Position numbers and translations under genes: made by a program | The notes under the pieces: generated by a model | The model's input: only the letters and a program-made list of their open reading frames with translations | Told to the model about the DNA's origin: nothing | The model's database searches: none | Assembly: GCA_921293015.1 (NCBI GenBank) | Contig: OV121093.1 | Location: forward strand, 868,001-932,000 | Length of the DNA stretch: 64,000 nt | Direction: 5' to 3' | DNA from: Phorcus lineatus | Taxonomy: Eukaryota > Mollusca > Gastropoda > Trochida > Trochidae | Shown: one piece after another, positions 14,465 through 61,629 of the stretch | Numbering within the stretch: position 1 is the first letter of the stretch | Layout: every line of letters starts with the position of its first letter

Positions 14465-14569
14465 GTCATAATACATCACAAAACAAAGTGCAAATTCGGA
14501 AAGTTTTTTACAAAAATGCCAGCATTTCATCAATTGTGCCATCTAACCATTAGAGTAGAATGATTTAAA

Positions 14570-15510
14570 ATGGGATCTGAAAGAGTAAGAATTATTTCGA
14601 TGAATTGTAGGGGCCTTGGTGACAGTCTAAAAAGGAAACAAGTATTTAGTTTTCTTAAAGAGAAAAAAGCATCTATATACTGTTTACAAGATGTTTATTT
14701 TACGAAACAACAGGAACAGTTTATCAAACAACAATGGGGCTATTCTGAATGCTACTTTAGTTCCTATAATTCGAATGCTTGTGGAACCGCAATATTTTTT
14801 AATAATACGTTTGAATTTAGCATTAAAAAACAGTATTCTGATGAAGATTCTGGTAACTTTAAGGGTTTAGATATTGAAATTGATGATAGGCAATATCTTC
14901 TTTTAAACTTATATGCCCCTAACGAAGACACACCCAAATTCTATGAACGAATTGTAGACATATTAAATGAATCAGAGTCGGAATTTTTAATTCTCTGTGG
15001 GGATTGGAATTGTGCTTTAAATCCAATTTTTGACTAATTTAATTACAAACATATAAACAACCCTAAAGTTAGCGCAAAAATACATGATCTTATTGAATTA
15101 TATGATCTGAAAGATCCATGGAGATTATCCAATCCTTATGGAAAAAAATATACTTGGCGACAACCTACCCCATTGAAACAATCACGTCTTGATTATTTCC
15201 TTGTTTCGCATAATCTCCTTTCATCAATAGAATATACCGAAATTGACCCGGGCTTTAAAACAGACCATTCTATAATAGAAATGAGTCTGCAACTAAACGA
15301 GATTGTACGCGGAAAAGGCTTTTGGAAGTTCAATAACTCCCTGTTAAACGATCCGGAATATGTAAAAGATACGATAAAGGAAACTTGTGACCAATATAAA
15401 ATTTCGGATCAACTTTTATGGGAAACTTTATTGTGTTTAGTAAGAGGTAAAACCATATATTATTCCAGTAGCAAAAAATAGAACAGAGAAAAAAGAGAAA
15501 AACAAATATA
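14570..15510 (+). pseudogene. L1-like LINE ORF2, endonuclease part (interrupted at 15510)
   Basis: The first frame (14570-15037) encodes an APE-type endonuclease: RIISMNCRGLGD (catalytic Asn), KASIYCLQDVYF (usual E of LQET replaced by D), and LILCGDWNCALNP (D and N of the GDFN motif). After one stop (15035-15037) it continues in the same frame with SRLDYFLVSHNLLSS and DPGFKTDHSIIEMSL (the final SDH-type His). The linker GFWKFNNSLLNDPEYVKD follows. Another stop lies at 15479-15481, then REKREKQI up to the boundary with the giant element. The sequence resumes in frame at about 40375. Two stops and the altered active site mark it as inactive. Confidence 0.85.
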
Positions 15511-21500: not shown

Positions 21501-24500
21501 TGTGCATGATCAAGTAGCAAACCCATTTCTCTTTCAGCTTTGGAGATGTAAGAAACAATGTAAACAACGCAAGAATATGCATCAATCACAAACTGAATGT
21601 CCATGTTGGCACCCCAACATCGCAAAAGATCTTGGTTGTACTGATTGACCCACACATCAGAGGAGTTTCTTTGAAGGACAACACTGTTTTTGTTTGTAAG
21701 TGTCTTTGATGCAGTTTCGTACATCTCTTGGGTAATGCCAATACTTTCGAACAAACTGTCTACGGAATCATAACTTTCAGTTTCATCCTGTAAAGCATTC
21801 CATATTTTGCCAAGAATCTCTTTAGCTTGTTCTTTGTTCATGACATTGCTGTTCTTGTCTATAGCCTCTTGGCATTTGAGATCAAAGATTCTGCGTTCTT
21901 CATCATTCATCATTTCATAGTCACCAACTGGTACTTCGACAACTTCAGTTTCTGAACGACAAACAAAAGTTTTCTTTGAAGGAGGACGTGGGAAATTGAA
22001 GCGGCATTCTTTTCCATTTTTTTTGCATGTCTTTGAATGTCTTTTGCTATGTCTCTGTACACTAGTAACAATCTCATGAAGTTCGTGATCATCATCTTCA
22101 TTTGGCATGTCGCAAGAAACATATTGATTAACAAAGTCAACAACTTCATCATCAGTGTTTTTGTCAATCTTTGGCGCATTTTCAACCCAGAGTAGGCAAT
22201 GAACATGGGGTGATCCCCGCTGTTGGAATTCCACTCGGAAGAAATAGTCTTGGATTTTGCCAATTGGTTGTGCAGGTGACATGATCACATCTCTCAAGAA
22301 TGTGTGAAATCTTTGGTCAAACATTCTGGCAGTTGTGACAGGATTTCTCCTCAATATTGCACATTTTTCATTCCAGTCAAGATCGTTTGCTTTACGGGGA
22401 TCTCCAGTTTCTCTTAATATGCTTTCAATGATTTCAGGCCACCTAGTTTCAGCAGATGAGAAAGAGCAAAACCATGTTGGAATACCAAGCTGGCGAATCA
22501 AAGCAAAGATATCTTTTTGAGTGGATGCCCAGTAAGGTGGTGTTCCTCGGATTGGTGTCAAGAATTTGTACCCGTCATCATTTTTCAAGAAGTTTTGCAG
22601 CGCTGCATTATCTACCAGTGTATTAGCATCAACCTTTGGTTGTGAATGATCAGCTTTGCCTTTTCGCAGAGCAATGGATGCCTTTGAGATTACCTGATCA
22701 AGTTCAGATCTATACTGCGCATGAAAAATGTACGGAATGCTTTGTGCACATCTTGTATCTGCATTCATCAATCTACAGTGGAGATAACGAGAAAGAGTCA
22801 ATTTTTCCTCTCGATTGTCATGATAGATTGGACCACCTTTAGGAAACAGACATGGGAAGGCTTTTGGTTCATCATCATTTTCTTGGAGCATTCGAACAGG
22901 ATTGTTTCCTTCAGCTGGTGCAATGTTTGTTATTCTATCAAAATGTTGATCAAGTATTTCTTGGCCAATATCAATTGGCTGTAAACATGTGTCAAGCAGC
23001 ATGCCATGATTGTCTGATTCTTCACGTGTGACATCAACATTGGATGTTGTTTCATCTTGAATGTCTGTATCAGAGTGATCATCAGTATCAATTTCCATTT
23101 CATTTCCCTCGTTAATAACAGGTAGTGGGTTGACCCAAGTTTCATTCAATTCAATATGTCTGTAATATTGGTTGTTTTCTTGAAGATATTCTAGCGCTCT
23201 CAAAACCTTTGTTTTGTTTACATACTGATTTTTGTAATGCCCTTTGTAAGTAAGTTTTCTTTTCAACTTCACTTGAACAAGCTGATCTTCTGAATCAGAC
23301 CTGGGTAATGCATTGACAGTTTGCACGATATTTGATGGAACACTGACAACTGGGCCATGGACTGAATTTTGTGCACCTTTAGGAAGAGCAACAAGTTTCA
23401 TGAATGGAATGTGCAGAGATACAAGGTGTTCCTCAAGTTCGTTAAGGTTTCCAAGTTCAGGTGGTATTGGTTCAAAATGAAGATTGTTCACAACTGATTC
23501 TCCTGGAATTTTTCCTCGTTTGACTTTTGCATGACACGAATGACAAATCCATAACTTTGACATTGATCCTGTTGCTAAGATACACATGTCCTGACAATCC
23601 TCAGTGCAACTATGTAAATATTGTTCTGTGATGCACCTTCCAGCAGCTTGTGCAGCGTTTTCACTTTTATTCTCATATAAATCTTTTCTACATTCAAGCA
23701 CTTGTTTTCTGAACAGTTTTCTGTGACAGACAGCACACACGTAATCTGGACCCTCACTGATTGCTGATCTGAATGTTTCAGTAACATGTTTGAAACTTTG
23801 TTGTTGTTGTTTTTTTGAAAGTCTTTGCTTTGTGACAGATTTTTTTACGTTTGTTTTGTGATTGGGATTATTTGCATACTGCCGAGAACTAGCAGCTTTG
23901 GCAGTATTTCGATGCTCTGCATCTGTGGCATATTTGTCAATACTGGCAGCTTTTAGAGCATCACGATGATCAACATTTGTGGCATATTTGTCAATACTGG
24001 CAGCTTTTACAGCATCACGGTGATCAACATTTGTGGCATATTTGTCAATACTGGCAGCTTTTACAGCATCACGATGCTCAACATTTGTGGCATATTTGTC
24101 AATACTGGCAGCTTTTACAGCATCACGATGATCAACATTTGTGGCATATTTGTCAATACTGGCAGCTTTTACAGCATCACGATGCTCAACATTTGTGGCA
24201 TATTTGTCAATACTGGCAGCTTTTACAGCATCACGATGTTGTGCATTCATGGCATATTTTTCAATGCTTGCATATTTAAGAGTTTCACAAACTTCAGTAT
24301 TTGTAGCATATTTGTCGATTCCAGCAGCAATGAGAGACTCACGATACTGAGAATTTGTAGCATATTTGTCAATCCCAGAAGCTATGAGAGACTCACGATA
24401 CTGAGTATTTGTAGCATATTTGTCAATCCCAGAAGCTATGAGAGACTCACGATACTGAGTATTTGTAGCATATTTGTCAATCCCAGAAGCTATGAGAGAC

Positions 24501-26506
24501 TCACGATACTGAGTATTTGTAGCATATTTGTCAATCCCAGAAGCTATGAGAGACTCATGATACTGAGTATTTGTAGCATATTTGTCAATCCCAGAAGCTA
24601 TGAGAGACTCACGATACTGAGTATTTGTAGCATACTTTTCGATTCCAGCAGATATCACAGCTTGTCGGTAACAAGTGTCAGTAGAATATTTCAGTCTGCT
24701 TGCTTGTTTTTTGCGCTCTCTGTATTCGGTATCAAAAGAGTACCTTTTCTGTTTAACTTGAGCAGGATTTTCATCTGAAGCATTTTCTGTTTGTCTTTTC
24801 ACAGCTCGAGAAATTCGCATTGATACCTTTTGCTGAAGTTGCCTTTTCTCCATTGACATTTTTCGTTTTCGTTTTCTTACTTTGGTCTTTGGAAGTGACT
24901 GATCATTTGATAGTGTAGGTACGTCAGCAGTCCTATTTGAATTGTCATTTTCACCAATAGATTGAGTAAGCACAAAGAGTGTTTCAATTGTTACTGGTGT
25001 CACTTCAAATTGGGTATTCACTTGAGCATTCATCGATGAAGAAAGACGCACACAATGAGAATGTACTTGTTCCAAAGAGTTGTACTGTGCAACAATACAG
25101 GTACCATTACTTGTGAGTTCACCATTTGCATTGCGAGAATGTGAATCAAAAACATGAAATCTGTTTCTTGAAAAAAAGACAGCAAAAGTAGATTGACAAA
25201 AGGTAACAAAGGCAAACTGGTTATTCTCAAAGGATTTTGCCAAGGCATCTTTCAAGGACATTGTGTTCATTTCATTGTCATTTTGCATACCTAGTAAGCC
25301 AAAAAGAGTCTCTCTCAAGCTCAAATGGTAAATGTTTCCATTGATCTCTACATTTTCTGGAAGTTCTTCAACATTCAGATATGCATTACTTATTGCAGTA
25401 AACCTTTGCAAAGAAGCATACATTTCATTCCCATGAGTCATGATTGTATTGAGGTCACGCGTGGTCCAGTCAAGTGCACTTTTCAGTTTGGAATATACCA
25501 TTGCGGACAAACTCATTGGAACACATTGTTTTCCTGCTGTTTCACCAAAAATAGCATGTCCCTGGCTGTAGGAGGCATGAAGTACAAAGCAGTTTGAAGC
25601 TGTGCTGTCAATAACGTTAGCAACTGATGTACTTGACATCTGTTCTTCAGAATGCAATGTGTTTGAGTGGTCATCTTGTTCAAGACAGTTTTCACCTGCA
25701 TTAAGGTAATACTCGATCTGTTCATCAGTAAGATCAACCTGTGCATCACTTTGTGACTGGTCATCATGTTCAAGACAGTTTTCACCAGCATTGACGTAAT
25801 AATTGATCTGTTCATCAGTAAGATCAAAGTTTGCATCAATTGTGGAAGTCAATTCAATACCACCCAAATCCGGTTTAGTATTTGGTCTACACAGTGAAGG
25901 TTGCCATTCGGGGGATAAAATTGGCATTTCATTCAACATATCATTGATCCTTTCATTGGGCATTTCATTGATCATTTCATTGGGCATTTCATTGGGCATT
26001 TCATTGATCATTTCATTGATCATTTCATTGGGCATTTCATTGATCTTTTCATTGGGCATTTCATTGGGAATATCTTTAGGAATTTCTTTGGGCATTTCAT
26101 TGGGCATTTCATTGAGAGATTCATTGAGTGATTCATTGTTCAGTTCATTGAGTGATTCATTGTTCAGTTCATTGAGTGATTCATTGTTCAGTTCATTGAG
26201 TGATTCATTGTTCAGCTCACAGAGTGATGCATTGAGTGATTCATTGAGTGATTCATTGTGCAGTTCATTGTACATACTATTGTGGCTCATGTTTTTAATG
26301 AGGGCATGTTCCTCTGTGTAGCTCATGTTTTTAATGAGGGCATGTTCCTCTTGGTAGCTCATGTTTTTAATGAGGGCATGTTCCTCTGTGTAGCTCATGT
26401 TTTTAATGAGGGCATGTTCCTCGCTCCTGTTTTTAACGAGGGCAAGTTCCTCGATACTTGCCTTCTTGCGGGCTGCACCCTTCTTCCAGTTCTTCCTTCT
26501 CGGCAT
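18533..26506 (-). CDS. Helitron Rep-helicase with protease-like, repeat and endonuclease domains (2,657 residues)
   Basis: A single uninterrupted frame. Order: short N-terminal repeats (EEHALIKNMSY, then NESLNE/NEMPNE, residues ~25-205); a cysteine-protease-like domain with GKQCVPMS (C328) and RFHVFDSHSR (H451, D454); about sixteen 18-residue repeats around DKYATN (~600-880); a Cys-rich DUF6570-like region (~915-1125). The Helitron N-terminal/Rep domain follows, with HUH motif SPHVHCLLW (H1434, H1436) and tyrosines in VVYIVSYISK (Y1649, Y1653). The PIF1/SF1B helicase has Walker A TGGAGTGKS (K2020), Walker B LIIDEIS (D2103) and motif AYVALSRVTSLDGLI. The C-terminal endonuclease domain has TETWLS (E2480) and MGDFNENA (D2592), but SFHDA at the end where SDH is usual. 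Rep nicks and transfers one DNA strand; the helicase unwinds it. The intact frame suggests a young element. TGTTTCTTTTTAG lies directly before the ATG, suggesting a 5'-UTR intron. Confidence 0.95.
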   Translation of the reverse strand: MPRRKNWKKGAARKKASIEELALVKNRSEEHALIKNMSYTEEHALIKNMSYQEEHALIKNMSYTEEHALIKNMSHNSMYNELHNESLNESLNASLCELNNESLNELNNESLNELNNESLNELNNESLNESLNEMPNEMPKEIPKDIPNEMPNEKINEMPNEMINEMINEMPNEMPNEMINEMPNERINDMLNEMPILSPEWQPSLCRPNTKPDLGGIELTSTIDANFDLTDEQINYYVNAGENCLEHDDQSQSDAQVDLTDEQIEYYLNAGENCLEQDDHSNTLHSEEQMSSTSVANVIDSTASNCFVLHASYSQGHAIFGETAGKQCVPMSLSAMVYSKLKSALDWTTRDLNTIMTHGNEMYASLQRFTAISNAYLNVEELPENVEINGNIYHLSLRETLFGLLGMQNDNEMNTMSLKDALAKSFENNQFAFVTFCQSTFAVFFSRNRFHVFDSHSRNANGELTSNGTCIVAQYNSLEQVHSHCVRLSSSMNAQVNTQFEVTPVTIETLFVLTQSIGENDNSNRTADVPTLSNDQSLPKTKVRKRKRKMSMEKRQLQQKVSMRISRAVKRQTENASDENPAQVKQKRYSFDTEYRERKKQASRLKYSTDTCYRQAVISAGIEKYATNTQYRESLIASGIDKYATNTQYHESLIASGIDKYATNTQYRESLIASGIDKYATNTQYRESLIASGIDKYATNTQYRESLIASGIDKYATNSQYRESLIAAGIDKYATNTEVCETLKYASIEKYAMNAQHRDAVKAASIDKYATNVEHRDAVKAASIDKYATNVDHRDAVKAASIDKYATNVEHRDAVKAASIDKYATNVDHRDAVKAASIDKYATNVDHRDALKAASIDKYATDAEHRNTAKAASSRQYANNPNHKTNVKKSVTKQRLSKKQQQQSFKHVTETFRSAISEGPDYVCAVCHRKLFRKQVLECRKDLYENKSENAAQAAGRCITEQYLHSCTEDCQDMCILATGSMSKLWICHSCHAKVKRGKIPGESVVNNLHFEPIPPELGNLNELEEHLVSLHIPFMKLVALPKGAQNSVHGPVVSVPSNIVQTVNALPRSDSEDQLVQVKLKRKLTYKGHYKNQYVNKTKVLRALEYLQENNQYYRHIELNETWVNPLPVINEGNEMEIDTDDHSDTDIQDETTSNVDVTREESDNHGMLLDTCLQPIDIGQEILDQHFDRITNIAPAEGNNPVRMLQENDDEPKAFPCLFPKGGPIYHDNREEKLTLSRYLHCRLMNADTRCAQSIPYIFHAQYRSELDQVISKASIALRKGKADHSQPKVDANTLVDNAALQNFLKNDDGYKFLTPIRGTPPYWASTQKDIFALIRQLGIPTWFCSFSSAETRWPEIIESILRETGDPRKANDLDWNEKCAILRRNPVTTARMFDQRFHTFLRDVIMSPAQPIGKIQDYFFRVEFQQRGSPHVHCLLWVENAPKIDKNTDDEVVDFVNQYVSCDMPNEDDDHELHEIVTSVQRHSKRHSKTCKKNGKECRFNFPRPPSKKTFVCRSETEVVEVPVGDYEMMNDEERRIFDLKCQEAIDKNSNVMNKEQAKEILGKIWNALQDETESYDSVDSLFESIGITQEMYETASKTLTNKNSVVLQRNSSDVWVNQYNQDLLRCWGANMDIQFVIDAYSCVVYIVSYISKAEREMGLLLDHAQSEIRKEGNVDAKNAMRRIGTKYLNSREVSAQEAIFRVCTLDLKGCSRKVEMIPTVNRVRMSMPLQQLRAKVANGEIDQDDVWLPSVLDRYRARPDTPEFRDMCQATFVSDYRVLSKSEVTNVSDENRRTPVIALLNNLGHIKKRTRTDSAVVRYAKFAKEKDPEKYFQSSLELFLNHTSESQLLPPQFNSFEHFYNDGAIATASGVVEQVKTIVERNRQHFEKNASDMQLAQETLEASGSLEDAWSQICPEAEVNRLECQEVRRNDHSDDNHDSDDEQNIPDLLPHEERVSHTEAIQSNVSKTEAHAILKSLNEKQNEVFYKLRQWCLDKRNGKDPKPFHVFLTGGAGTGKSHLVKAFYYEATRLLAPTLDHPDDTSVLLMAPTANAAFNIKGSTIHSGLSIGIAVPNQYQYLCENTLNTLRSKCGGVQVLIIDEISMVDQKLLAYVHGRLKQIKQKDSPFGNVSILAVGDFYQLPPVKGVPLYKSVPGYDLWNDCFSVVELTEIMRQRDPEFAALLNRLRKASKRDAIDGETNLESDDVALLSSRVTEDGPDCLHIKSTNVEVDKYNSEMLDKICKDTFEIEIEEFGKNKITGDLELLSTTSQRIGIDARVLLTKNIDTSDGLVNGAFGKVSHVSTKNGKVCTVYVAFDNNDVGKKVRLTKHNPPGVPMNSTPISRHDENNARSKKTKRQFPLKLAWACTIHKVQGLTVQQAVVSLKKIFAPGQAYVALSRVTSLDGLILKDFDPKAIFCSSDVSESISNMPQYCNSVEIENHDHNCHLVLHNIEGLPCHIDKLRSDKRFHSADMIFVTETWLSTVQHPALGGFMFRHKQRSQSYDDSDPLFASLKTQAHGGVGVFSKIQCEFPNLETTNLEYLTAFIPDQTTTVTVVYRPQTYKLTPFKNQLKDLLDEISEYSDKTIVMGDFNENALTTSSIQRFMEARGFSQIAVSATTEAGTLPDHVYVKGIDNVRVKVLPTYFSFHDALELFF
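23880..24690 (-). repeat. Coding minisatellite, 54-bp unit, ~15-16 copies
   Basis: This array inside the Rep-helicase gene encodes 18-residue units. Two blocks of near-identical units are seen: IDKYATNTQYRESLIASG (left in protein order) and IDKYATNVEHRDAVKAAS, with diverged units between and at both ends. Within the second block, V-E and V-D variants alternate. The function is unknown; DNA or RNA binding is possible from the many basic and polar residues. Confidence 0.95.
25925..26440 (-). repeat. Coding microsatellite/minisatellites at the 5' end of the Rep-helicase gene
   Basis: Three kinds of short in-frame repeats are adjacent: 12-bp units (NEMP/NEMI) at 25925-26115, 24-bp units (NESLNEL-N) at 26116-26265, and 39-45-bp units (EEHALIKNMSY) at 26283-26430. 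All keep the reading frame. Confidence 0.9.
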
Positions 26507-43078: not shown

Positions 43079-43830
43079 CTGTTAACTCTCTCAAGGAAAA
43101 ATTTGCGAAATGACATGGTACATACAGCTATTAGTTTTTATAGAAATTTTAGACAAAGAATTTCTTGTCACAGGAACTTGTAACACAATTTCAAAAAGAT
43201 TTGAAGGGTTGCACATCCTGAGAATATTTTCACATGGACATATTTTCAAAGATCGAAGAGGGTGATGACCTAGAATGTTCCAAAAATAGGTTACGACTTT
43301 CTCATGCACTAACCTTCTCATGCACTAACAGGGGGTAATGACCTAGAATGTTCCAAATATGGGTTACGACTTTCTCATGCACTAAAAGACTTTCTGCACC
43401 AATAACCTATTTAATTTCCCTCCAAAAACGTGCTACCCAAGGGTCAATAAACTCATAAACAATCACCAATGTATGAACATTCAATGAAATCTAGTTGTCT
43501 GTTAACCAAGTAATGTCCATCATCTATAGTGTAATTTAAGTTCTTACTAATACTACTAATTATACATAATAAAGAAAGTTGAGTATATAATAAGTTAATT
43601 TATCATCGTTGAAATCATCCCAATTCAGAATGTAGGGCAGTGATATGTATATCTCCGTTTGTAATAACAGCTGCCATATAGTGTAATATATGATACAATG
43701 AAATCATAAAACAAAAAAACCTTTCTAATCATATTAAGTCTCAAATATATTGTAGTTCATGTATTCACGCATTCCACGTGAACATTCGCTGCAACGCGGC
43801 TGTAGGTCGGCTATGATAGGGTTTGCTATA
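43079..43830. other. Non-coding stretch with short direct repeats
   Basis: GGTTACGACTTTCTCATGCA occurs twice (near 43291 and 43363) together with TGACCTAGAATGTTCCAAA. No supported gene. Confidence 0.4.
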
Positions 43831-43848
43831 GGTGCGCTCGATTTGCTT
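43831..43848 (+). repeat. Left terminal inverted repeat of Harbinger element
   Basis: Pairs with 52016-52033 with three mismatches; followed by CCGGC-rich subterminal DNA (43852-43905). Confidence 0.7.
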
Positions 43849-43934
43849 TAAACCGGCCGATAGCCTGTGCGCACGATCACGTGACCGGCTCAGCGGCTCG
43901 CTGACCGAATCGAATGTACCGGGCGAAAGTCAAG

Positions 43935-46083
43935 ATGGCGGAGACAGTTGTTGTGGTCGCTTGCCACACCATGTTAAACCAAGACAGCGATGACGAGGAG
44001 GACTATTTGCTCAGAGATGCATTTATTCTCGAATCTGCGTAAGTTGTTTTCAAAAAGTCAAAACAAAATTTAGTTCATTATTGCTTAATTTCATGTAATG
44101 TTTGAGATGAGTGCGTATATTCGATGCAATGTTGCATCCTGATGTCTTTCATGTAATTTTTGATATTCTAGTGTCTGTAACCTGTGTTTATTGTTATTGC
44201 TCTGTATTATTTTGTATAAATGTAACTATAACAAAACTGGAGACATGTAATTATTCAATTTCCCTTTTTGGACAATAAAGATTATCTTTATCTTATCTCA
44301 ACTAATATATATTTGGAAGGACGCCAATATGTGTTCGATATGCGTTGATAAAATAATTAATATTTTATCTGATAAGTCAGGGTATAGATGAATAGAGAAT
44401 AGAGAATACGTTTCAGTTTTCGAATACATACTTTTATATATTTGGTTCAAGATGTATGTATGTATATCATAAATAAATTATTATTTTATGTTATTACCAA
44501 ACAATAAATAGAATACATAATTTTTAAAATTTACTTTTTTATAAACACGTCTGCAGTTTTCCTGAAGGAAAGCCAAGCTGCACTCGGTCTAAGTAAACCT
44601 AGCCTCAATATTATCCGTTTCACTCCTATAGTGAGTCTAAATAAGTCTAGTAGAGGGTCACGTCAGCCGACCTTTCTGCGACCTATGACCTTCCAACGTT
44701 ATACCTGCGAAGACAGGCTTGGTAAGCTGTATTCTGATTGGTTAATTAGATACGAAGGCTGACGTGACTCGCAACTAGACCTTTTTAGACTCACTATAGA
44801 AGTGAAACGGATAATATTGAGTCTAGGTTTACTTAGACCGAGCTGCACTGTTCCTGAAGGAAAGCCAAGCTGCACTGATGAGTCCTGGCGGGACGAAACG
44901 TGTGATGAATTGATACAATATGATACAAGAATGCCCCATTTCAGACAAGAGGTGCTTTACGTCACCTCAGTGGCGGATCAGTTATAGATTCAATATATGG
45001 CTTTGTAGTTGTGCTCCAGAAATAAAATGTAGTTTTAAAGACATCTTTATTTGTATTTTCAGCCTCAGGAAAGATCGGATTAAGACCATGAACTTTGTTG
45101 AGCACATTGTCCCAAACTTACTGCAAGACACTTTCAGGCGCTTTTTCCGAATGAGTCGAGGAACCGTGGAACTTCTTTGCCAAACACTAGCAAATGCACT
45201 CTTATCAAGAATGGTTCCAGGTGGTCGATGTGAGGTCCCATTAGAGAAGAAAGTTCTTCTTACCCTACGGTATTTAGCCTCACAGGAAACATTGTTTAAA
45301 TTAAGACAAGACTTTGGGGTTTCGGAATCTACTGCCATTAAATGCCGACGTGATGTAGTTAATGCAATCAACAGTGCACTTGTTGACAAATTCATCAAAT
45401 GGCCTGAAAATAGAGATCTCGCTCAAATAGCACAGGAGTTTGACAGATTTGGGAACTACAGGTTTCCAAATATTGTGGGAGCACTTGATGGATGTCATAT
45501 TGAAATTGAAGCCCCCAACAATAATCCAAAGGCGTATTTCAACCGAAAAAAATTCTATTCTGTAATACTCCAAGGAGTGGCAGTGAATGACACCAGATTC
45601 ATTGACCTAAATATTGGATGGCCTGGTCGCGTCCACGACGCTAAAGTTTTGAAAAATTCAAGCTTGTGGGACAGTGGCTATGTTAAAACCAACAATGGTC
45701 AGTACCATCTCATCGCAGATGCGGCTTATCCGATTAAAGAATGGGTTTTAACCCCATTCAGGGACAATGGCCAATTGACCCCACAACAGCTTCGTTACAA
45801 CAGGTGTCTATCCTCCAAACGACAAGTCGTGGAACGGGCCTTTGGCCTTTTGAAGAGTCGATTCCGTCGCCTGAGACATGTTCATGTCCATGATCTTCGT
45901 GAAGTATGCAGAATAATTGCAGCATGCTGTGCTCTCCACAATGTGTGCATTCTACAGGAAGATCAACTTGAGGATGTGATTGATCAGGACCAACAAGTAG
46001 TTGCTCAAGCACCATTACCATTGCTTCAGCAAAATGATGCTCAGGGTCAACTGAAGCGATTGGTTATCACAAATAACCTTTGA
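43935..46083 (+). CDS. Harbinger (HARBI1-like) transposase, two exons
   Basis: Exon 1 (43935-44038) starts at AAGATGGCGG and encodes MAETVVVVACHTMLNQDSDD with an acidic continuation. It ends at a donor GTAAGT. Exon 2 (45063-46083) follows an acceptor TGTATTTTCAG. Joining gives an in-frame protein of 374 residues, close to the ~350-400 usual for the family. An N-terminal helix-turn-helix-like region contains SRGTVELLCQTLANAL and FGVSESTAIKCRRDVVNAI. The DDE_Tnp_4 nuclease has IVGALDGCHIEI (first Asp), HLIADAAYPIKEW (second Asp) and QVVERAFGLLKSRFRRLR (Glu). The enzyme cuts and pastes the element and needs the Myb-like partner for end binding and nuclear entry. No stops or frameshifts. The intron carries a hammerhead ribozyme candidate. 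Confidence 0.9.
44545..44903 (+). ncRNA. Type III hammerhead ribozyme, discontinuous (insert in stem-I loop)
   Basis: All parts are present in order on the transcribed strand. Stem III 5' strand ACACGU (44545-44550), cleavage triplet GUC with predicted cut after C44551. Stem I 5' strand UGCAGUUU (44552-44559), a long loop, then stem I 3' strand AAGCUGCA (44867-44874; eight pairs including one G-U). Core CUGAUGA (44875-44881). Stem II GUCC/GGAC with loop UGGCG (44882-44894). Core GAA (44895-44897), then stem III 3' strand ACGUGU (44898-44903). Every conserved core base matches. The loop has a 26-bp direct repeat (44559-44584 and 44851-44876) flanking an inserted element. Without the insert and one repeat, the ribozyme would be compact with a 15-base loop. 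Confidence 0.8.
44585..44840. mobile_element. MITE with ~40-bp inverted ends, inserted in the ribozyme loop
   Basis: It starts CGGTCTAAGTAAACCTAG and ends CTAGGTTTACTTAGACCG. The inverted similarity extends about 40 bp with one mismatch (CTCAATATTATCCGTTTCA and its complement), and further in broken form. AGCTGCACT lies directly on both sides (44576-44584 and 44841-44849), giving a 9-bp target-site duplication, as in Mutator-like elements. Alternatively the 26-bp repeat around it is the duplication. Confidence 0.85.
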
Positions 46084-46784
46084 TGTGAACTCGCCCAAAC
46101 ATGGCATTGAGCCATCTCATTCCTGTCATACAGTAAGAACTAAGAATAGAAACTGAAGTAGATCTGTTTCATGGCTTATGTATCTAAAAGAGAGTATGGA
46201 GTATGAAATAAACTTGGGTTTAAAAAAAAGTTTTATTATTTATCCATTAAATGTTTTGGAAACTTAAAATGGAAAAAATGAGGATGAACTGCCGTAAGGA
46301 GAGATCTTGTTTGCACAAGTTTGTTAATTTTATCTTAATTAGTGGTCGAAACATCTGGTTTTGTTAGTTTCATCCTCCCTTCTCCCTACAATCTGTTAGT
46401 TGCAGCAGCATCAATAGTTGCTGATAAATATTACAGTGATTGTAGCCCCAAACATACTTGACTAGCTAATTATATATGCTGGTAACTGAACCCTGAAAGA
46501 CTGATTTAATGCTGGTACAATTAAACAATAGATGGTGTAACTTCATTTCAGGCAAATATTAATAAGCAAATGTGTTATGATAGCTCAAAACTTGATTTAT
46601 ATGTTATACTGTAGCTTATCAAGATTTTGACATGAAGTATGTTCTTTAAGATGTTCGGTTAGTTCAAGATATCGATCCAAACCTTGGGACACTGAGAACA
46701 AACACAAATTTTTTGATTGAATTTTATTTCATAACACAAATATAAAAAACAAACAAAACCAACCTTCTGTATTAAATGACAGAT
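46084..46784. other. Non-coding, 3' side of transposase
   Basis: It contains the transposase 3' untranslated region; AATAAA occurs at about 46206. No other gene. Confidence 0.4.
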
Positions 46785-46970
46785 AATCATCATAAAATAA
46801 AATAAAAAAACATTGTCCTGAGATGTGCTTCCAACACAAGCAAGTAAATCATCATAAAATAAAAAAACTCTGTCCTGAGATGTGCTTCCAACACAAGCAA
46901 GTAAATCATCATAAAATATAAAAAACACATTGTCCTGAGATGTGCTTAATAGTAAAGTAAATCATAATCA
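46785..46970. repeat. Minisatellite, ~58-bp unit, 2.5-3 copies
   Basis: TGTCCTGAGATGTGCTT recurs at about 46814, 46871 and 46931 within units that also contain CCAACACAAGCAAGTAAATC and CATCATAAAATA. Confidence 0.9.
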
Positions 46971-47894
46971 TAATGATCTAAGGTTGAAAGGCTAAAAAAA
47001 GAACACACAATTAATTGATCTACGGTGATAGACGGCAACTGTCAATTATTTGATTTACCATCAAACAATTTAACCCATGACAAAACCACCATTTGGACAC
47101 ATTTAATTGAAAGACAAGTAAAAAAACTGAACAGAGCATACTTATACACTGACTGTTGGTTGGGGGTAGGATTAGGAACACCCTACCACACCATGACTTA
47201 ATTATTAACTCTCAACAGTCCGACAACTGAAAAACTTCAAATGTTAGCACGGACAGACAGACTGGATGATAAATGGATTGCCTTCAATTTTACCGGAGTT
47301 AACACCCTTGACATGAAAAAAGCAAATTTTTTGTGACTTTTTTAAAGAAAAATAATCATTTTTAACATTTCAAGAAATTATGACAGAAGTATTGACATTG
47401 AGTTTATACCAAAAAAATAACTCTTGTTCCTGTGAAGAAACAACAGGATAAACATTTATATTCAGAAGTAAAAACACAAACTAATTTGCCACTCACTCAT
47501 CTTATCATCTTTAAATAGCAAAATAAAGAAGTAATTGGTTGTTGACATGTTAATCCTTTTAAAAAAATATCAATTATTGGCAGTTATTGACTAAAGGGTT
47601 ATTATGATAGATTTTGGAATAAGTTTTTTATACATTATAAGCTCCTATTAAAAGGGTATACAATAACAGGTCATAATGGCTATATATTATAAATGTCAAC
47701 ATTGTGATTTATTGAATTAGACTTTTTTTAAATAATAGTATTTTGAACAACCAAGTTACACTTTTTTTCTCTGTTAACTTGGCATGATTGTTTTTTTTAA
47801 ATGAAACTTTGATAACTTTCTAAAAATGATCATTATGATATGGATGTATTATAATTATCATAAGATTACATTTACATTAACAATGTTAATATAA
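46971..47894. other. Non-coding stretch inside Harbinger element
   Basis: AT-rich, no supported gene. Confidence 0.35.
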
Positions 47895-48287
47895 ACACTC
47901 AGGGGCAAAAGAAACAATACCATGTTTTCAAAAGAGTATAACACAAAGTGAATTTGTCGGATAAAGAGGATTTTGAATACTTGCTATATTATCTCGTAAA
48001 GATACATTCAGGATTTAAATCCTTAGACTATGATACTAAATATTTAATCACTTCTGGACATGGGATGCTGAAACTGCTTTTTCAAAATGGGTTTTCTCAA
48101 CATAAACTTTGACATTTAAGTTAAAACATGCGTTTCTCAGAAATATTAACAGATGATGTTTTGATATTTTAAATGAAGTTTATTCAGCCTCTAAGGAAAT
48201 GTTAAATTCTCTGTCAGTTGTAAATATATTTCATGAATAGAAACATATGGTACTTTGCATGGTATATTTTCTTTTGCCCCTGAGTGT
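47895..48287. mobile_element. Small inverted-repeat element (MITE), ~393 bp
   Basis: ACACTCAGGGGCAAAAGAAA (47895-47914) is the exact reverse complement of the DNA at about 48268-48287. The interior is AT-rich and non-coding. Target-site duplication is unclear (flanks ATAA and AGAT). It lies between the convergent genes of the Harbinger element. Confidence 0.8.
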
Positions 48288-48349
48288 AGATACAGACAAT
48301 TTTTCTTTGAAATCAGAGGTGCTGAATTTCTTCCATGTGTGTATTAATT

Positions 48350-51300
48350 TTACTTATTAGCAATAACTTTGAGAACATCAATTAGCTGATTGGTGGTGTC
48401 CATCCTCTCACGATGTCTCTTCTCTGCAGCGGCCTCCCTTCTCTCACTCTCAGTCTGCAGGTAGTCTTTTAAGTTGTCGCTTACACTCCTTCGCTTCTTG
48501 GGTTTAGGCTCACCTTGGAGAAAAAAATGACCATTGTTTATAATCAAGGCAACCAATATCATGATACACTTTCAAGAAGAACCCTCCATCAAGTTTAGAA
48601 CTTAAAACAAGAATATTTTAAATACCCTCACCTAGAAACATTCCAACAATTACAATTAATCATTATTTGCACTAATAAATAAACAAGGAAATATCACGAA
48701 AATAAGGCAACTGCTATATATAATTAATAAATTGTTGTAAGGTTAGTCAGTGTAAAGAATCAAATCAACTGCTGTCCAGGAATTAAGTAAGATAAAATGC
48801 AATTTTACTATGCACTAATTCCACATACCAGCTTCATCCATGGGCATCAAATCATCTGGAGATTCCACCTGTTCAGGGGCTCCGGTGTCGATTGTTGCCA
48901 CAGGTTTAAAATCCGGCTGAGATTCAAAACAATCTTCCAACTGTGTGTCTGTCTCTTCTGCACCTTCCCCAGAGGTGTTGGACTTCTTTTTTTGCCTTGT
49001 GTATCTGTCTTTAAGACTTTTGATTTTGAGGCGACATTGTTCTGCGCTGAATACAAAATTGTATTCTGACATAGTTTGGGAAATTTTCTTCCATTTGTTC
49101 TTGATGATCTTCTTGTCCGCCTCCATTTGTCTATGTGTTTCCATGAGTAATTTCTCTGCCTTGCGACTCCATACAGGTCCTGTGAATAAATGCTCACTTT
49201 TACTGCATGTTCAAAAAATATGACAAGTGTAAATCCAAGTTTAACCAAGTCTGATTTAGCTAAGAGATAACTTGTTTGCATGCAAAAACTTACAAATATA
49301 TGCAAACATACACTGTGTAACAAATGTCATGTGAAAGCAATAGAACTACCCTAGAGCATAAGGAACAAGTGGATTTTTAAGGTGTGATTTCTCCCTTTGA
49401 GGCTTGAAGAGCTAAAAGTATTCTACACAATGAAGATGATAAGGCAAAAAAAAACACTGCCATAATTTGGAAGATACTTTAATGGAATTCGTAAACATTT
49501 AATCAGACACAATGCATCTCTACAACTTTGGGTCCTCTGTAGGTGGAAGGTCCCTCATAAAAAGTGTATGGACTATTTACCTGGATTATCCCCAGAACAC
49601 GATGCTATTGCATCATCCTTCTTGGGGCCTGCTGCGGTGTCTGCTACATCTACAGTGTCTGCTACGTCTACAGTGTCTGCTACGTCTACAGTATCTAAAG
49701 AGTCTGCACTACTCATAAACACCTGATCCAGGATGATCTCCTTAACTGATGGGTCTGAAATTATCAAGCAATACATTAAAACTGGCAGTTATCAGAAACC
49801 AAAAAATACACACAAGACATGCAAAATGAGCCCAGGACAAAAAGTAAATCCACAATTTTATATCTCCAGCAGAAGACAAACTGGAATAAGAACATTTACA
49901 ATTGAAATCATTTAATAGTTCAACTGACAATTAATAGGCCGGATTTTAAGCCAGATATGGGGTGGGGGGGACAACAAATTTTGGTAATATGAACTGAAAA
50001 ATGTTGTTAGCTATTGAAAGTGTTTTTGGATATGTATTATAGTGTTTTTTATAATACATTTATTGAATACACTATTAAAAAACCTTCATAATAATATTTA
50101 AATAATAAGTCATTTACTGTGTAATATATTCACTGTTAGCTGTTCAAGATGTAGAGAATAAGTTTGACATTCTTACCAGTATCATTGGACATAAGCAATT
50201 TGGCAACATCTTGACTGACCATGATGTGGTGTGTTGACCCATTTCTTTCTACTCTCATACTTATACGAGACATGGCTAGGCTGAAAGAAAATAAATCAAT
50301 ATATATTAGACTTAAATGGAAGTTCACACTTCCTAATACCGATGCATCTATTAAAGTCTACAGTTAATGGCTTAATGCCTTAAATGTATTAACGTTTCCA
50401 TGTATTTTGTGCTATGGATATTCCTATCAAAATTTTACGATAAAGAAAAGTTAAAAGTCAGACAGGATTCACTCACTACAGAATTAGCAATAAAGATACT
50501 AATGTTGGTAAACTGAAATATACCTTCAAAGAATAATGGATTTTGAGGGCCATACATAGATTATTAATGCCAGTGAATGGAAACAAAACCATTTCATTCA
50601 CTATACTTAATTAACTTATGCCATTGTACATTTTCGGATGTCAATATCAAGACGGAACAAGTTATGTCTTGGAGAGATGTTGTATCTATCAAGAACTAGT
50701 ATTTTCAAAATGGATAACTGAAGTGAGGTGAGTTGGGTTTAAAAACCGCTTTGAGAGTATTTCATCTAAAACAGTGCAGGGAGAAAGCTATCAACACCAT
50801 GCATGATGTGGCTATATTGCAGTGAAACTAAATAAGTATTTCACCATTTAATCTCAGTATTACTATTAGGCTTATCAGATTAATAACATAATTGTATACT
50901 TGCCTAAAGCACAAGCTGTACAAGTAACTGTCTTTACTTCCCCAGTGATGTATTGCTCTATTTCCGGGTTGTCGCAATGAGCATGCCACACCTTTTGGCA
51001 GAAGTGACAGCGAATGTAAATTCTGAAAAGACATATTGTGTAGATGTCTATATGAAAATAATTAAGACAAAGCTTTAACTGAAACGACATTCTCTTGAAT
51101 TATTAATTTACCTTTTAGAATTGTTGTAACTACTTTTTAAAATATTTTTAAATATCATATTTCATCATATCATTACTTTTTATTTAACTGGAGTACTTCA
51201 GGCATCAACCTGGAACAGAATGTGAAAGGGGGAATAATCTCTTCTTTGCTTACACAATCATTTTCAGACTAACTAAATTAACAACTTTACCTTCATATAT

Positions 51301-51745
51301 ATACAATGAGACTTTCTCCCCTTCCCAGTATTCATGGGATATGTTGGTACCGTAATTATCCCCAAATCCCTGCACAAAGTGAACTCTAGTTATTTTATAC
51401 ACATTAGACAATTTTATCACAAAGCTTCATTTCATGAAATAGATGTTAATAACATGAATAAGGCCTCCTGCTATAATGGTACATTTTGACTGGAAAACAA
51501 TACTGTACAAAAACTAACACGTCACCGATAGTACCTATCAGTGACGTATCCAGGAATTTTAAAAGTAAGCCCCCCCCCCCCCCCTGTTTCTATCCTCTCT
51601 CTGTTGACATACCGTACCTTAGTTCGTGGTCAATAAAGAACAGGGAATGGCTGGCGTTTTCTTGTGTTGCGAGTGATTGCCTGGAGGCAAGTGATGGTGC
51701 ACTTTTACATATGAAGCAAGTCCAGCGTAGTTCGGACTCTGCCAT
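48350..51745 (-). CDS. Harbinger-associated PHD finger plus Myb/SANT-like protein, six exons
   Basis: Minus-strand exons 51745-51618, 51022-50900, 50280-50177, 49754-49581, 49179-48829 and 48513-48350 join in frame to 347 codons plus stop. All have AG acceptors and GT donors (GTACGG, GTATAC, GTAAGA, GTAAAT, GTATGT). Exons 1-2 form a C4HC3 PHD finger: WTCFICK, then CHFCQKVWHAHC and CTAC. Exon 4 holds DVADTVDVADTVDVADT, a 15-bp coding repeat. Exon 5 is a Myb/SANT or trihelix-like domain: KAEKLLMETHRQ, WKKISQTMSEYN, CRLKIKSLKDRYTRQKKK. Exon 6 has a basic stretch KPKKRRS (possible nuclear signal) and a charged helix. In Harbinger elements the Myb-like partner binds the ends and imports the transposase; the PHD finger might read chromatin (inference). 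First donor chosen to keep phase; GTATGT 7 bp downstream is the alternative. Confidence 0.75.
50721..50826 (-). repeat. SINE family A 3' fragment, minus strand, in an intron
   Basis: GTGAGGTGAGTTGGGTTTAA, ACCGCTTT, GCAGGGAGAAAGC and the middle of the 3' region are recognisable. Diverged and 5'-truncated. Confidence 0.75.
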
Positions 51746-51849
51746 ATCAAACTGAAAATACGAATATATGCTCAAAATAAAGATCTCCAAACTTTATATA
51801 CGTTTACAAGTTAGGGAAAATTAACAATATGATTTGCAGGATATTGCAA

Positions 51850-52033
51850 ATCACGATACCTACCACGTGCCGCCATCTTTAACCGTCTTCAGCCGCTCAA
51901 ACAAGACCGGCGCAGACGGCTGACAGCCGGTGGGCTCAGCCGGTACAGCCGTTGCGAAACGAATGCTTGAGCCGCCGGAAATCCTTTAGACCGGCTAGCC
52001 GGCTACTCAGCCGCCAAGCAAATCGAGCAGGCC
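51850..52033. repeat. Right end of Harbinger element with clustered CCGGC motifs
   Basis: GCCGCCATCTTT is followed by many CCGGC/GCCGG and GACGGCTGACAGCCGG-type segments (51898-52010), ending in the terminal repeat 52016-52033. Such clusters just inside the end are candidate binding sites for the element's Myb-like protein. Confidence 0.6.
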
Positions 52034-53357
52034 TTATGTTACATCGTGTGGTGAAATTGTCAATTCTCGCGGAGTGATGCGTTTTGGCGAATCTAATCAA
52101 AGCTGTATGGGAAAAGGACCTGATAAGATTATTTTGAAAATACTTAACTGAAAAGATACTTTATTCATATGATAACATACTTGTAAATACTGATGAAATG
52201 CGACCTCTGATTATTCATAATTTATATTTAGCATGAAAGAATAGTTGAAGAATATCCATAAAGCTGATGTGAAAGGATTTTATTACACCATAAGTAGTAT
52301 ACATGAATCAATCTGAAATTGCTATCATAAGTACATTAATATCATATTATGCTAAAAACATTCTTGAATGAACCACTCGTAACACATTTACATAGGTGTT
52401 TGGCTTCATAACAACACTTAGATAGTGATGTGATATGGGATCGCCGCTTTCAAGAATATTTCACTTATATAGCGACTGCTAGTATCATGACAAGCCCAGA
52501 ACTCTATTGTGACTAAACAACATTATAAACATGAGGTAAATTAATAGATATCACAACACAAATATACAATTTGAGAATCTCTAATATAATGAAATACTAC
52601 TTTTTATTGTCAGTACAGAACATTTCTGAGATATACATACATTTATTACATTACTTACCTCAACTTTTGAGATATTTCCTCCTTTTAAACACATAATGAA
52701 ATCCAATAAATCACAAACATGTGAAGAATCCTATAGAATCAGTATCTAGTCATAATTATATCAATCTTCTGATCTCAATCCCATTCTTATCAACACAAAG
52801 GCTTTTTTGCCGCCATTTAGTACCATGCGGTTTGACATACTGTTTCCCTAACGACAATCTTTAAAGCTGAACAACACTCAGATGAATCTTATGAAAATCA
52901 TTATTAAATCTGCTTAGGTTGAACATTTTATTCATGTATTTTGAGTGTATAGACTTAAACTATTGAATCAATCCATAAGTATTATACTTGTACGACCTTG
53001 TGAACTCAAAATGAAGTCACGGTGACTTGTATTTGGATCTTACGGTTTATGATGAATATGATTTAAAAATTAAGTGATACGAATGAAAGAACATTTTGTA
53101 GGCTTTTCAACGCTATCTCATATGTCTATTTCCATAACTTATTAAGCTCACAAGGAATCGAAATGTGAAATGTAAACATACAGGTTCAAAATAGACAGAA
53201 GCATTACCGTAAAAATTCCGATAAAATGTATTGGGGAAAAAGAGGGAATTCAACCAAACAAATTGTATTTTGTTTCATTTGATGTCAGCTACACATTTCA
53301 ATGCTATAATACTTTATATCACAGTTTTTAATTTTAGTGTTTTATTTCAGTTGAACA
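52034..53357. other. Non-coding stretch
   Basis: AT-rich. A minus-strand SINE family A fragment lies at about 52441-52512 (CGCCGCTTTCAAGAATATTTC, split here as CGCCGCTTTCAAG and AATATTTCACTTATA). Nothing else supported. Confidence 0.4.
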
Positions 53358-60075: not shown

Positions 60076-60257
60076 TCTGAAAGGCCCGGGGCCACTCTCT
60101 GAAAGGCCCTGGACCTCTCTCTGAAGGCCCTAAACAGACAGTCAATAGGCCCTTGGGACACGTTCTTAAATATCGACTAGGTCAAAGAAAGGTCCGGGGC
60201 CTCTCTCTAAAAGACCAGGGGTCACTCTCTTAATCGACGAAACGCCAGTCAAAGGCC
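60070..60257. repeat. GC-rich degenerate repeats (GGCCC/GGGCC)
   Basis: AAAGGCCCGGGGCCACTCTC and shortened variants recur about six times, several with CTCTCTGAAAGGCCC. They are unlike the AT-rich flanks. They separate the piggyBac pseudogene from the truncated LINE. Confidence 0.75.
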
Positions 60258-61412
60258 CGGGGCCACAATATCAGTTTTAGATGTAAGAAGTTCACCTTTG
60301 ACCTGTAGATGTTTTATTGATGATTTGGAACCTTTGCCTTTAATTTTACTAATCATATTCCAGACTTTGCTCATAGGCGTTCTGGAATTAATTTTAGAGA
60401 CATAGCCTCTCCAAGATTTGCGTTTTTCTTGATTGACAGTGCGGCGAGCCTTAGCCCGAGCTTTGCGACAGCCATCAAGATTGCCTGGTGTAGGATGTTT
60501 GTTGAACCTTCGTTCAGCCTTTTTACGTGCTCGAATGTCTTGTCTGCATGTATCATTAAACCATGGTTTAACAATACGTGGATTAGAGGTTGATTTAGGA
60601 ATGGCTTCCTCAGCAATTTCTATTAATTTATCTGAAAGTGTTTTGATAGGGTCTTCAGATTGTAATATTGATTCATATTTTATGTTTTCCATGCAAAGGG
60701 AAGAAAAAGTGTCCCAATCTGCTTTGGAAAACTTCCAATGAGGATTGTGTTCTTCAGGAGAAGATAGGGCAGGTTCCAATACTATTGGAAAGTGATCACT
60801 GCCACACATATCCTCATGGACTGACCAAATAAAGTCATTAAGTAATGATGGGTCAGTCATAGATAAGTCAATTGCGGAATATGTTCCTGAAGCAGGATGT
60901 AAATACGTATTGGTCCCATCATTAAATAATGAAAGACCATTATTGCCAAGGAAATCTTCCAACTTTTTACCCTTGTCATTGGTTGAATTACTTCCCCACA
61001 AGGGATTATGGCTGTTAAAGTCCCCAAGAATAAGAAAAGGTTTAGGGAGTTGCTGAACAAGATCATCGAGATCTTGAAGTATAAGTTTATCTGAAGGTGG
61101 AACATAAATTGAACATAATGTAAGAGTTTTGAATAAGCTAAGCTGTACAGCTACAGCTTGCAGTTTAGTTTTAAGGGGAATTTGACTGTGAATCACTCCT
61201 TGTCTCACAAGAATTGATGCACCCCCTTTGGCTCTTTCCAAGTCTGGTGAAAAGGCATTATACAAAGAGAAACCACGCATGGTGGTGTTATCAGATTGCT
61301 TAAAATGAGTTTCCTGCAGACATATTGCCTGTGGATTATATGATTGAGCCAGTAAAGAGAGCTCATTAAAGTTGGCTTTAAAACCACGACAATTCCACTG
61401 AAGAATTGCCAT
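60258..61412 (-). pseudogene. Jockey/Nimb-like LINE ORF2, endonuclease and linker; reverse transcriptase missing
   Basis: Start chosen at ATG 61412 (MAILQWNCRGFKANFNELS). The APE endonuclease is complete: QWNCRGF (Asn), AICLQETHF (Glu), CSIYVPPSD, FLILGDFNSHNPLWGS (Asp, Asn), SAIDLSMTDPSL and GSDHFPIVLE (Asp-His). The linker to the reverse transcriptase follows with KPWFNDTCRQDIRARKKAER and GYVSKINSRTPMSKVWN. The frame runs uninterrupted for 380 residues but ends abruptly at about 60262 in GGCCCGGGG repeats. LINE copies normally lose the 5' end, so loss of the 3' end implies a later deletion or rearrangement. The endonuclease itself looks intact. Confidence 0.85.
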
Positions 61413-61629
61413 AATTAATAAAAATGGAGTGAAAATATACATTTTAAATTATACTAGGAGCCTTGAGAGCCTTCGCCCCCCAGGATCCTCAGAGGATGCC
61501 CTTTGCCGCGATGGAGAGCGGCTTGTGGACCTGGATGGACAAGGGGAATCATCCATGTCCACATCAAAGTCAAGGTCCTGGAACCTGTTTCCAACACTGA
61601 CAGGGTCCTTGTCAGCTTTTGTTACCCTG

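Follow-up and report, generated by a model that had tools for sequence, protein, structure and literature searches.

The transposase gene of a PIF/Harbinger DNA transposon in the genome of Phorcus lineatus has, in its first intron and on its own strand, a motif that is confirmed, as far as sequence can confirm it, as a real hammerhead, and that recurs beside other transposase genes of the same genome. It was found in a window, by which we mean the whole stretch of 64,000 nucleotides that was analysed (C25:868001-932000 of an assembly of 957.8 Mb). By its sequence the putative ribozyme belongs to the class of extended, pseudoknotted type III hammerheads. On balance we think it probable that PIF/Harbinger-type transposons carry such a hammerhead upstream of their DDE exon, that the nascent transcript cuts itself and that the output of transposase is thereby lowered. 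Sequence, structure, covariation, conservation in many copies, position in an intron and, in four of six groups of copies and by predicted gene models, the strand shared with a transposase gene are what the analysis shows; self-cleavage is what we infer.

Results

A Harbinger Element and Its Transposase Gene

The element is assigned to PIF/Harbinger by a DDE_Tnp_4 transposase, terminal inverted repeats (TIRs) and a 3-bp target site duplication (TSD), which one of the five copies with both ends lacks in matching form. Its parts in the window are:

43830..52034, + strand: PIF/Harbinger DNA transposon, 8205 bp, with ends AGGTGCGCTCGATTTGCTT... and ...AAGCAAATCGAGCAGGCCT, between TSD copies TAT at 43827-43829 and 52035-52037
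43935..44038, + strand: transposase exon 1, defined by ATG, donor GTAAGT and frame
44039..45062, + strand: intron 1, with ribozyme and MITE, GTAAGT...TTTCAG in 7/7 copies
45063..46083, + strand: transposase exon 2, DDE_Tnp_4 (Pfam PF13359, E 2e-38)

The two exons together encode 374 amino acids. The frame is consistent across the intron that runs from GTAAGT at 44039 to TTTCAG at 45062, which bears out the location in a Harbinger transposase intron that an earlier note on this DNA had proposed. The product of exon 2 is 56% identical to an ALP1-like protein of Pecten maximus, the nearest named relatives of the transposase are those of scallops, oysters and mussels, and the N-terminus encoded by exon 1 can be aligned loosely with the N-termini of the relatives.

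Six other copies of the element, which together with the window copy make up group A below, are 99.6-99.9% identical to it over the aligned 3.8-4.7 kb. In all seven the transposase open reading frame (ORF) and the splice sites are intact, and the 359 nt of ribozyme plus insert are identical, with every core base in place. From the intact ORFs follows that the ribozyme did not stop transposition. Five of the seven copies have both ends, with lengths of 8205, 8191, 8200, 10792 and 10225 bases, the last two presumably because of inserts in the 3' part; four of these five have a matching 3-bp TSD (TAT in three, CAA in one) and the fifth has none. The right ends of the copies on C29 and C16 were not found in the stretches fetched. 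An ORF of 159 codons on the - strand at 48847-49326, inside the element, is perhaps a second gene.

Hammerhead Core, Stems and Pseudoknot

Read directly and by script, the + strand from 44545 to 44903 is ACACGUC / UGCAG ... CUGCA CUGAUGA GUCC UGGCG GGAC GAA ACGUGU, where the slash marks the predicted cleavage site. This is a complete hammerhead core (GUH, CUGANGA, GAA and the pair A15.1-U16.1) with the following parts:

44545..44550, + strand: stem III, 5' strand, 6 bp with 44898-44903
44551..44552, + strand: cleavage site GUC(44551)/U(44552), with C17 at 44551, predicted from the hammerhead rule
44552..44556, + strand: stem I, 5' strand UGCAG, 5 bp with 44870-44874
44864..44867, + strand: GCCA in the internal loop of stem I, partner in the pseudoknot by sequence and by the GCCR/YGGC pattern of PMC7936874
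44870..44874, + strand: stem I, 3' strand CUGCA, paired with 44552-44556
44875..44881, + strand: core CUGAUGA, by direct reading
44882..44894, + strand: stem II with loop UGGCG, strands 44882-44885 and 44891-44894
44895..44897, + strand: core GAA, by script
44898..44903, + strand: stem III, 3' strand, by script

Both readings recover on the transcribed strand all the core positions that the earlier note had listed, namely GUC, CUGAUGA, GAA and the A-U pair that closes stem III. Stem III is open and stems I and II are closed, so that the type III architecture claimed there stands as well. The stem lengths given there, 6, 8 and 4 bp for III, I and II, hold for stem III and for stem II (4 bp, or 5 when one G-U is counted); the 8 bp in a row of stem I are obtained only if one U-G is included, and otherwise the stem has 5 bp followed by the internal loop GCCAAG.

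Four Watson-Crick pairs can form between loop II (UGGC, 44886-44889) and GCCA at 44864-44867 in this internal loop. The pairing has the GCCR/YGGC form of the extended type III hammerheads of HDV-like RNAs; the 6-bp stem II of that class is absent in the window hammerhead, where stem II has the 4 or 5 bp stated above. The two 5-nt strands of stem I are 313 nt apart (44557-44869), and in this respect the motif is a discontinuous hammerhead with a large stem I, of the CLEC2 kind.

The Insert in Stem I

Most of this distance is taken up by an inverted repeat of 256 bp, which the earlier note had placed in stem I and which is found there exactly, at 44585-44840:

44585..44840, no strand assigned: MITE, 256 bp, inverted repeat inside stem I, with two further full-length copies at 90% elsewhere
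44576..44584, + strand: MITE TSD AGCTGCACT, left copy, by script
44841..44849, + strand: MITE TSD AGCTGCACT, right copy, by script
44557..44583, + strand: 27-nt tandem duplication, unit 1, in the stem I hairpin, by script
44849..44875, + strand: 27-nt tandem duplication, unit 2, by script

Its TIRs match at 29 of 30 positions and its target duplication has 9 bp, which is the usual length for Mutator-like elements. There are 61 matches to the MITE in the genome, including many pieces and with both orientations of the palindrome counted. Two other full copies, on C32 and C12, have a 9-bp TSD of their own, CAATTTACA; since the 380-base stretches around them are identical, flanks included, they represent one site, so that two independent sites with 9 bp are available. 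The insert is thus a MITE by its short length, its TIRs, the constant length of its TSD and its copies elsewhere. The two 380-base stretches appear to be copies of another repeat, in which the MITE is embedded.

A target duplication of 32-34 nt around the insert had been considered and was dropped, because other copies of the MITE show a TSD of 9 bp and the longer repeat is the 27-nt tandem duplication. This duplication predates the MITE. The MITE in its turn is common to all seven copies of group A, from which follows that the element has moved with it since. The insert sits in the distal part of stem I, and the core of the ribozyme remains whole. When the earlier note spoke of a ribozyme split by a MITE, it was right that the MITE is inside stem I; the ribozyme is not broken by it, in that the minimum-energy fold is still a hammerhead. 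The pseudoknot, the tandem duplication and the presence of many copies go beyond what was described there.

A Family of Copies

A strict pattern of the 3' half has 40 matches in the whole genome, against none for its control: 10 with the loop of the window hammerhead and 30 of another hammerhead kind. Two further patterns (31 letters; 35 relaxed places; at most three mismatches) each find the same 17 places and, reversed, find none. The number 17 refers to copies at the sensitivity used, and diverged copies may escape, as the second ribozymes of groups D and E did. The copies fall into six groups:

Group A: the window copy and three more on C25, and C7, C16 and C29, 7 copies of one Harbinger element
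Group B: pairs on C5 and C32; on C5 both cores intact, with a G-U in stem II of one; on C32 one intact core with changed stem II and loop II, the other decayed
Group C: C11, C15 and C25:28.48M, where the last has AAA in place of GAA
Group D: C15:5.893M, with UUGAUGA and a short stem I
Group E: C2, with CUGAUCA
Group F: C17, with CCGAUGA and GAAG

The core is intact in 12 of the 17 copies, all from groups A, B and C, and changed in five: D, E, F, the C25:28.48M copy of C and one of the C32 pair. Paired ribozymes lie 184 and 185 nt apart in B, 162 nt in E and 197 nt in D, some of them decayed. One paired hammerhead on C32 lacks stem III and the GAA box and has its pseudoknot bases and stem I intact.

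Short AT-rich matches aside, homology between groups is confined to the approximately 60-75 nt of the ribozyme: at E 1e-3 no DNA likeness outside it was seen between groups, with the exception of the B-B and C-C comparisons, and one of the comparisons covered the plus strand. When groups are alike in the ribozyme only, either the ribozyme has been kept while the rest diverged, or it has moved between elements.

Covariation and the Question of Chance

Three insert-free copies were used to build a covariance model, which matches the two halves of the window hammerhead at E 2.5e-11 and 2.9e-5, scores 80.4, 59.9 and 52.6 bits in groups outside its training, and also detects the second ribozymes, in decayed form, next to E (27.3 bits) and next to D (25.8 bits, partial). 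The alignment used for covariation consists of 15 matches, 11 of them distinct, is fitted to the structure and includes the three sequences from which the model was built; the window copy was left out because of its insert. In this alignment 94.6% of stem cells are paired, compared with 35-50% in slid controls, and two-sided, compensatory changes occur in 14 of 22 stem pairs and in every helix, a level reached in none of 500 shuffles. To give two examples, UGCAG/CUGCA of stem I has become UGCAC/GUGCA in group F, and CACGU/ACGUG of stem III has become CAUGU/ACAUG in group D. The pseudoknot is retained in 95% of 40 cells among the relatives; as it hardly varies, it adds conservation and no covariation.

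How readily could such a motif arise by chance? A type III descriptor that admits a loop of up to 400 nt has a single match in the window, with 8+6+6 = 20 bp. Among 6350 dinucleotide shuffles of the window, four reach at least 20 bp and 18 reach at least 18 bp, when the base pair count lets stem II run into the loop for window and shuffles alike and the pseudoknot is not required. The latter frequency corresponds to some tens of chance matches per 958 Mb, so that in a genome of this size chance could still account for the motif if the descriptor statistics were the only evidence. Against a chance resemblance, which we consider very improbable, stand the copies without insert at other places, the compensatory changes, which occur in all helices, the pseudoknot and the reversed-pattern control with no match; for the family it is refuted by the covariation.

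Rfam has no match in the window at gathering score, and RF00008 gives 17.9 bits (E 0.69) on 44844-44904. For four insert-free relatives the same model gives 44.4, 41.6, 41.6 and 39 bits, with E from 1e-6 to 3.5e-5, short of the gathering score of 48.5. These relatives do not reach the score above threshold that the earlier note had asked of the spliced-out form and, taken literally, their result is the one it had named as refutation. The gathering score of RF00008 is a threshold set by curators for a model whose stem I is short; it does not represent a biochemical feature.

Folding in Short and Long Transcripts

The minimum-energy fold of the 359-nt piece 44545-44903 is the hammerhead with the inserted palindrome prolonging stem I, at -184 kcal/mol, and the 94-nt form without MITE, which is the true empty site, also folds as a hammerhead, at -29.4 kcal/mol. 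In the partition function, stem III has a mean probability of 0.88 when the ribozyme is folded alone, 0.12 within 44500-44950 and 0.08 within the whole intron. Over 32 contexts, folded with no account of the pseudoknot or of the order of synthesis, the value is at most 0.22 in 23 and at least 0.43 in nine. Stem I is largely retained across contexts (0.67-0.95), while stem II drops to 0.22-0.59 in some. A low probability of stem III is also seen in insert-free forms, there joined on the discarded 32-34 nt duplication. Within the limits of such models, the folds of stem III count as real evidence against easy folding of the ribozyme in long transcripts.

They also speak for the view that the window element contains a true hammerhead by descent which no longer works, because the MITE and the AU-rich intron cause misfolding and the copies are carried along. 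Stem III loses in the 23 of 32 transcript folds, and decay is common in the family, with changed cores in five of 17 copies and alterations of stem II or loop II in two more (C5a and C32a). Yet all core bases are intact in 7/7 copies of group A, the stems are those of the minimum-energy fold of the 359-nt piece, the 94-nt empty site and the piece as found have similar stem probabilities, and passages of PMC6155905 describe discontinuous mammalian hammerheads with a helix I of 150-1500 nt. Loss of function in the window element is, on this evidence, unlikely.

Position in Other Transposase Genes

In groups A to D, four of the six, the ribozyme lies beside different transposase genes and on the strand of the gene. 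For B, C and D the gene models were predicted from splice signals and reading frames. The pair of group B lies between a predicted exon 1 and a DDE_Tnp_4 exon, whose frame has an in-frame stop on C5. The ribozyme of group C is in the third predicted intron of a gene with THAP, HTH_Tnp_4 and DDE_Tnp_4 domains. That of group D precedes the ATG of a HARBI1-like remnant by approximately 110 nt, in a leader or 5' intron; the remnant has 98 alignments with a set of 121 proteins, and three fragments of it have no match in Pfam. In group E the ribozyme runs antisense to a THAP exon that is weak (23.5 bits against a cut-off of 23.9), and within a range of 1.5 kb group F showed no transposase. The copies of E and F, whose cores are broken, do not share the strand of a transposase gene; decay is also seen in group D, the last of the four same-strand groups. 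The location within the gene differs: before LRKDRIK in A, after FRMARSSFR in B, after the THAP linker in C and upstream of the ATG in D.

These positions bear on a reading in which the ribozyme is a small mobile unit of its own, retrozyme-like or solo, with the transposon as its mere vehicle and without a role in transposase control; the pairs 162-197 nt apart could then release small RNAs that close to circles. It would explain that homology between groups is limited to the ribozyme, that the ribozyme occupies different places in the genes of A, B, C and D, and that tandem pairs are present in half of the six groups (B, D and E), resembling the dimers of retrozymes, which in metazoans, the mussel among the hosts, hold hammerheads in tandem repeats of 150-450 bp according to passages of PMC7229834. 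The same passages, however, give known metazoan retrozymes type I hammerheads and a shared monomer, while here the hammerheads are of type III and no repeated monomer was seen between them: a plus-strand comparison showed no spacer of paired ribozymes shared between groups. No target duplication of a ribozyme unit was noticed by eye, and a preference for one strand of transposase genes would not be expected of a free mobile unit, yet four of six is a small number. We regard the mobile unit, the main rival of the preferred reading, as possible and lean against it.

The stronger form of the preferred reading, that PIF/Harbinger-type transposons repeatedly acquired and kept a pseudoknotted type III hammerhead in the 5' part of the transposase gene as a brake in cis, a switch between cutting and splicing, is put forward tentatively and with considerable doubt.

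Discussion

From Putative Cleavage to Transposase Output

Suppose that the intronic hammerhead works in the group A element. The nascent transcript would then cut itself after C44551, in intron 1. Exon 1 would end up on a fragment that keeps the cap and lacks poly(A), and the DDE exon on an uncapped one that starts with a 5'-OH. Cutting would race splicing, and the share of transcripts spliced in time would yield transposase, so that the net effect would likely be a lower, self-limited output. The MITE would have inserted at a later time into the hairpin portion of stem I, merely lengthening the stem. According to exon tethering work (Dye 2006), splicing can reportedly survive a ribozyme cut inside an intron. 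Cleavage by an intronic ribozyme need not stop splicing, and the effect on transposase may be small or absent. In passages of PMC2288634 the hammerhead employed is described as cutting efficiently in vivo during transcription, and exon-tethering work is cited.

Relation to Known Hammerheads

The closest relatives in form are the extended type III hammerheads that passages of PMC7936874 describe from HDV-like circular RNAs of toad and termite, where they cleave in vitro, and from isolated copies in termite and dipteran genomes. Common to both are a first stem I of 5 bp, the GCCR internal loop, an additional stem I hairpin and the YGGC of loop II. The differences are that stem II here has 4-5 bp instead of 6, and that the ribozyme here is inside transposase genes of DNA transposons, while the genomic copies of termites are given there as having no recognizable ORF within 2 kb. 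Pseudoknots are considered likely in about 40% of hammerheads in passages of PMC3088659, and disruption of the one tested led to a large loss in rate.

The likeness to discontinuous CLEC2 hammerheads, which the earlier note had pointed out, is supported by passages of PMC6155905: the hammerhead in the Clec2 3' UTR is of type III with a very large helix I. Unlike in Clec2, the enlargement here is a MITE with a 9-bp TSD, is in an intron, and has compact relatives in the same genome. With the intronic hammerheads of amniotes (RECK and C10orf118/CTCL; passages of PMC3088659 and PMC6155905) the present one has in common that it lies within a protein-gene intron; the amniote ones are given as type I and belong to host genes, while this one is of type III in a transposon gene.

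The literature passages at hand tie small self-cleaving ribozymes of animals to retroelements, satellites, circular RNAs and a few host introns. In PMC, where few subscription papers are covered, none of the matches listed concerned hammerheads inside introns of DNA transposases, as judged by title or start of abstract. If the proposed function is true, the family would be a case of ribozyme-based gene control for DNA transposons, a small self-cleaving ribozyme working for cut-and-paste transposons, with a hammerhead family that recurs in transposase genes and seven recent, ORF-intact copies. Its recurrence in other transposons of the same genome suggests that such transposons may cut their own messages. 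The family also makes testable the effect of intronic hammerheads on splicing and the origin of the HDV-like type III hammerheads of animals.

Other Hammerheads and Features

The pseudoknot pattern has seven matches in bacterial genomes, none with the rest of the motif, and no match in viral contigs, from which the pattern of the MITE ends is absent too. By descriptor, compact type III hammerheads occur in at least 30 viral-contig loci, among 121 loci listed. An IMG/VR viral contig has at 1555-1610 what by eye is a type II hammerhead, whose stem I strands, UGCAG/CUGCA, are those of the window hammerhead, without a match at the Rfam gathering score.

The other hammerhead kind in this genome accounts for 30 of the 40 strict matches. 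Of these, 25 were read by eye: many have a TATA-like box approximately 25-50 nt upstream, and most have CUGAUGAGUCC...GGACGAAAC followed by CUAGUC or CGGUC (minimal stem III). Two of four that were scanned give 28.4 and 24.9 bits with RF00163 (gathering score 34). This kind resembles the minimal type I hammerheads of Penelope-like elements.

Elsewhere in the window, the - strand has at 18533-26506 an ORF of 2657 codons that is rich in tandem repeats, among them a 54-bp unit repeated 13 times at 23910-24634 and others up to 26422. Endonuclease domains of the kinds Exo_endo_phos and Exo_endo_phos_2, as in non-LTR retrotransposons, are found at 14564-15034 and 60249-61445.
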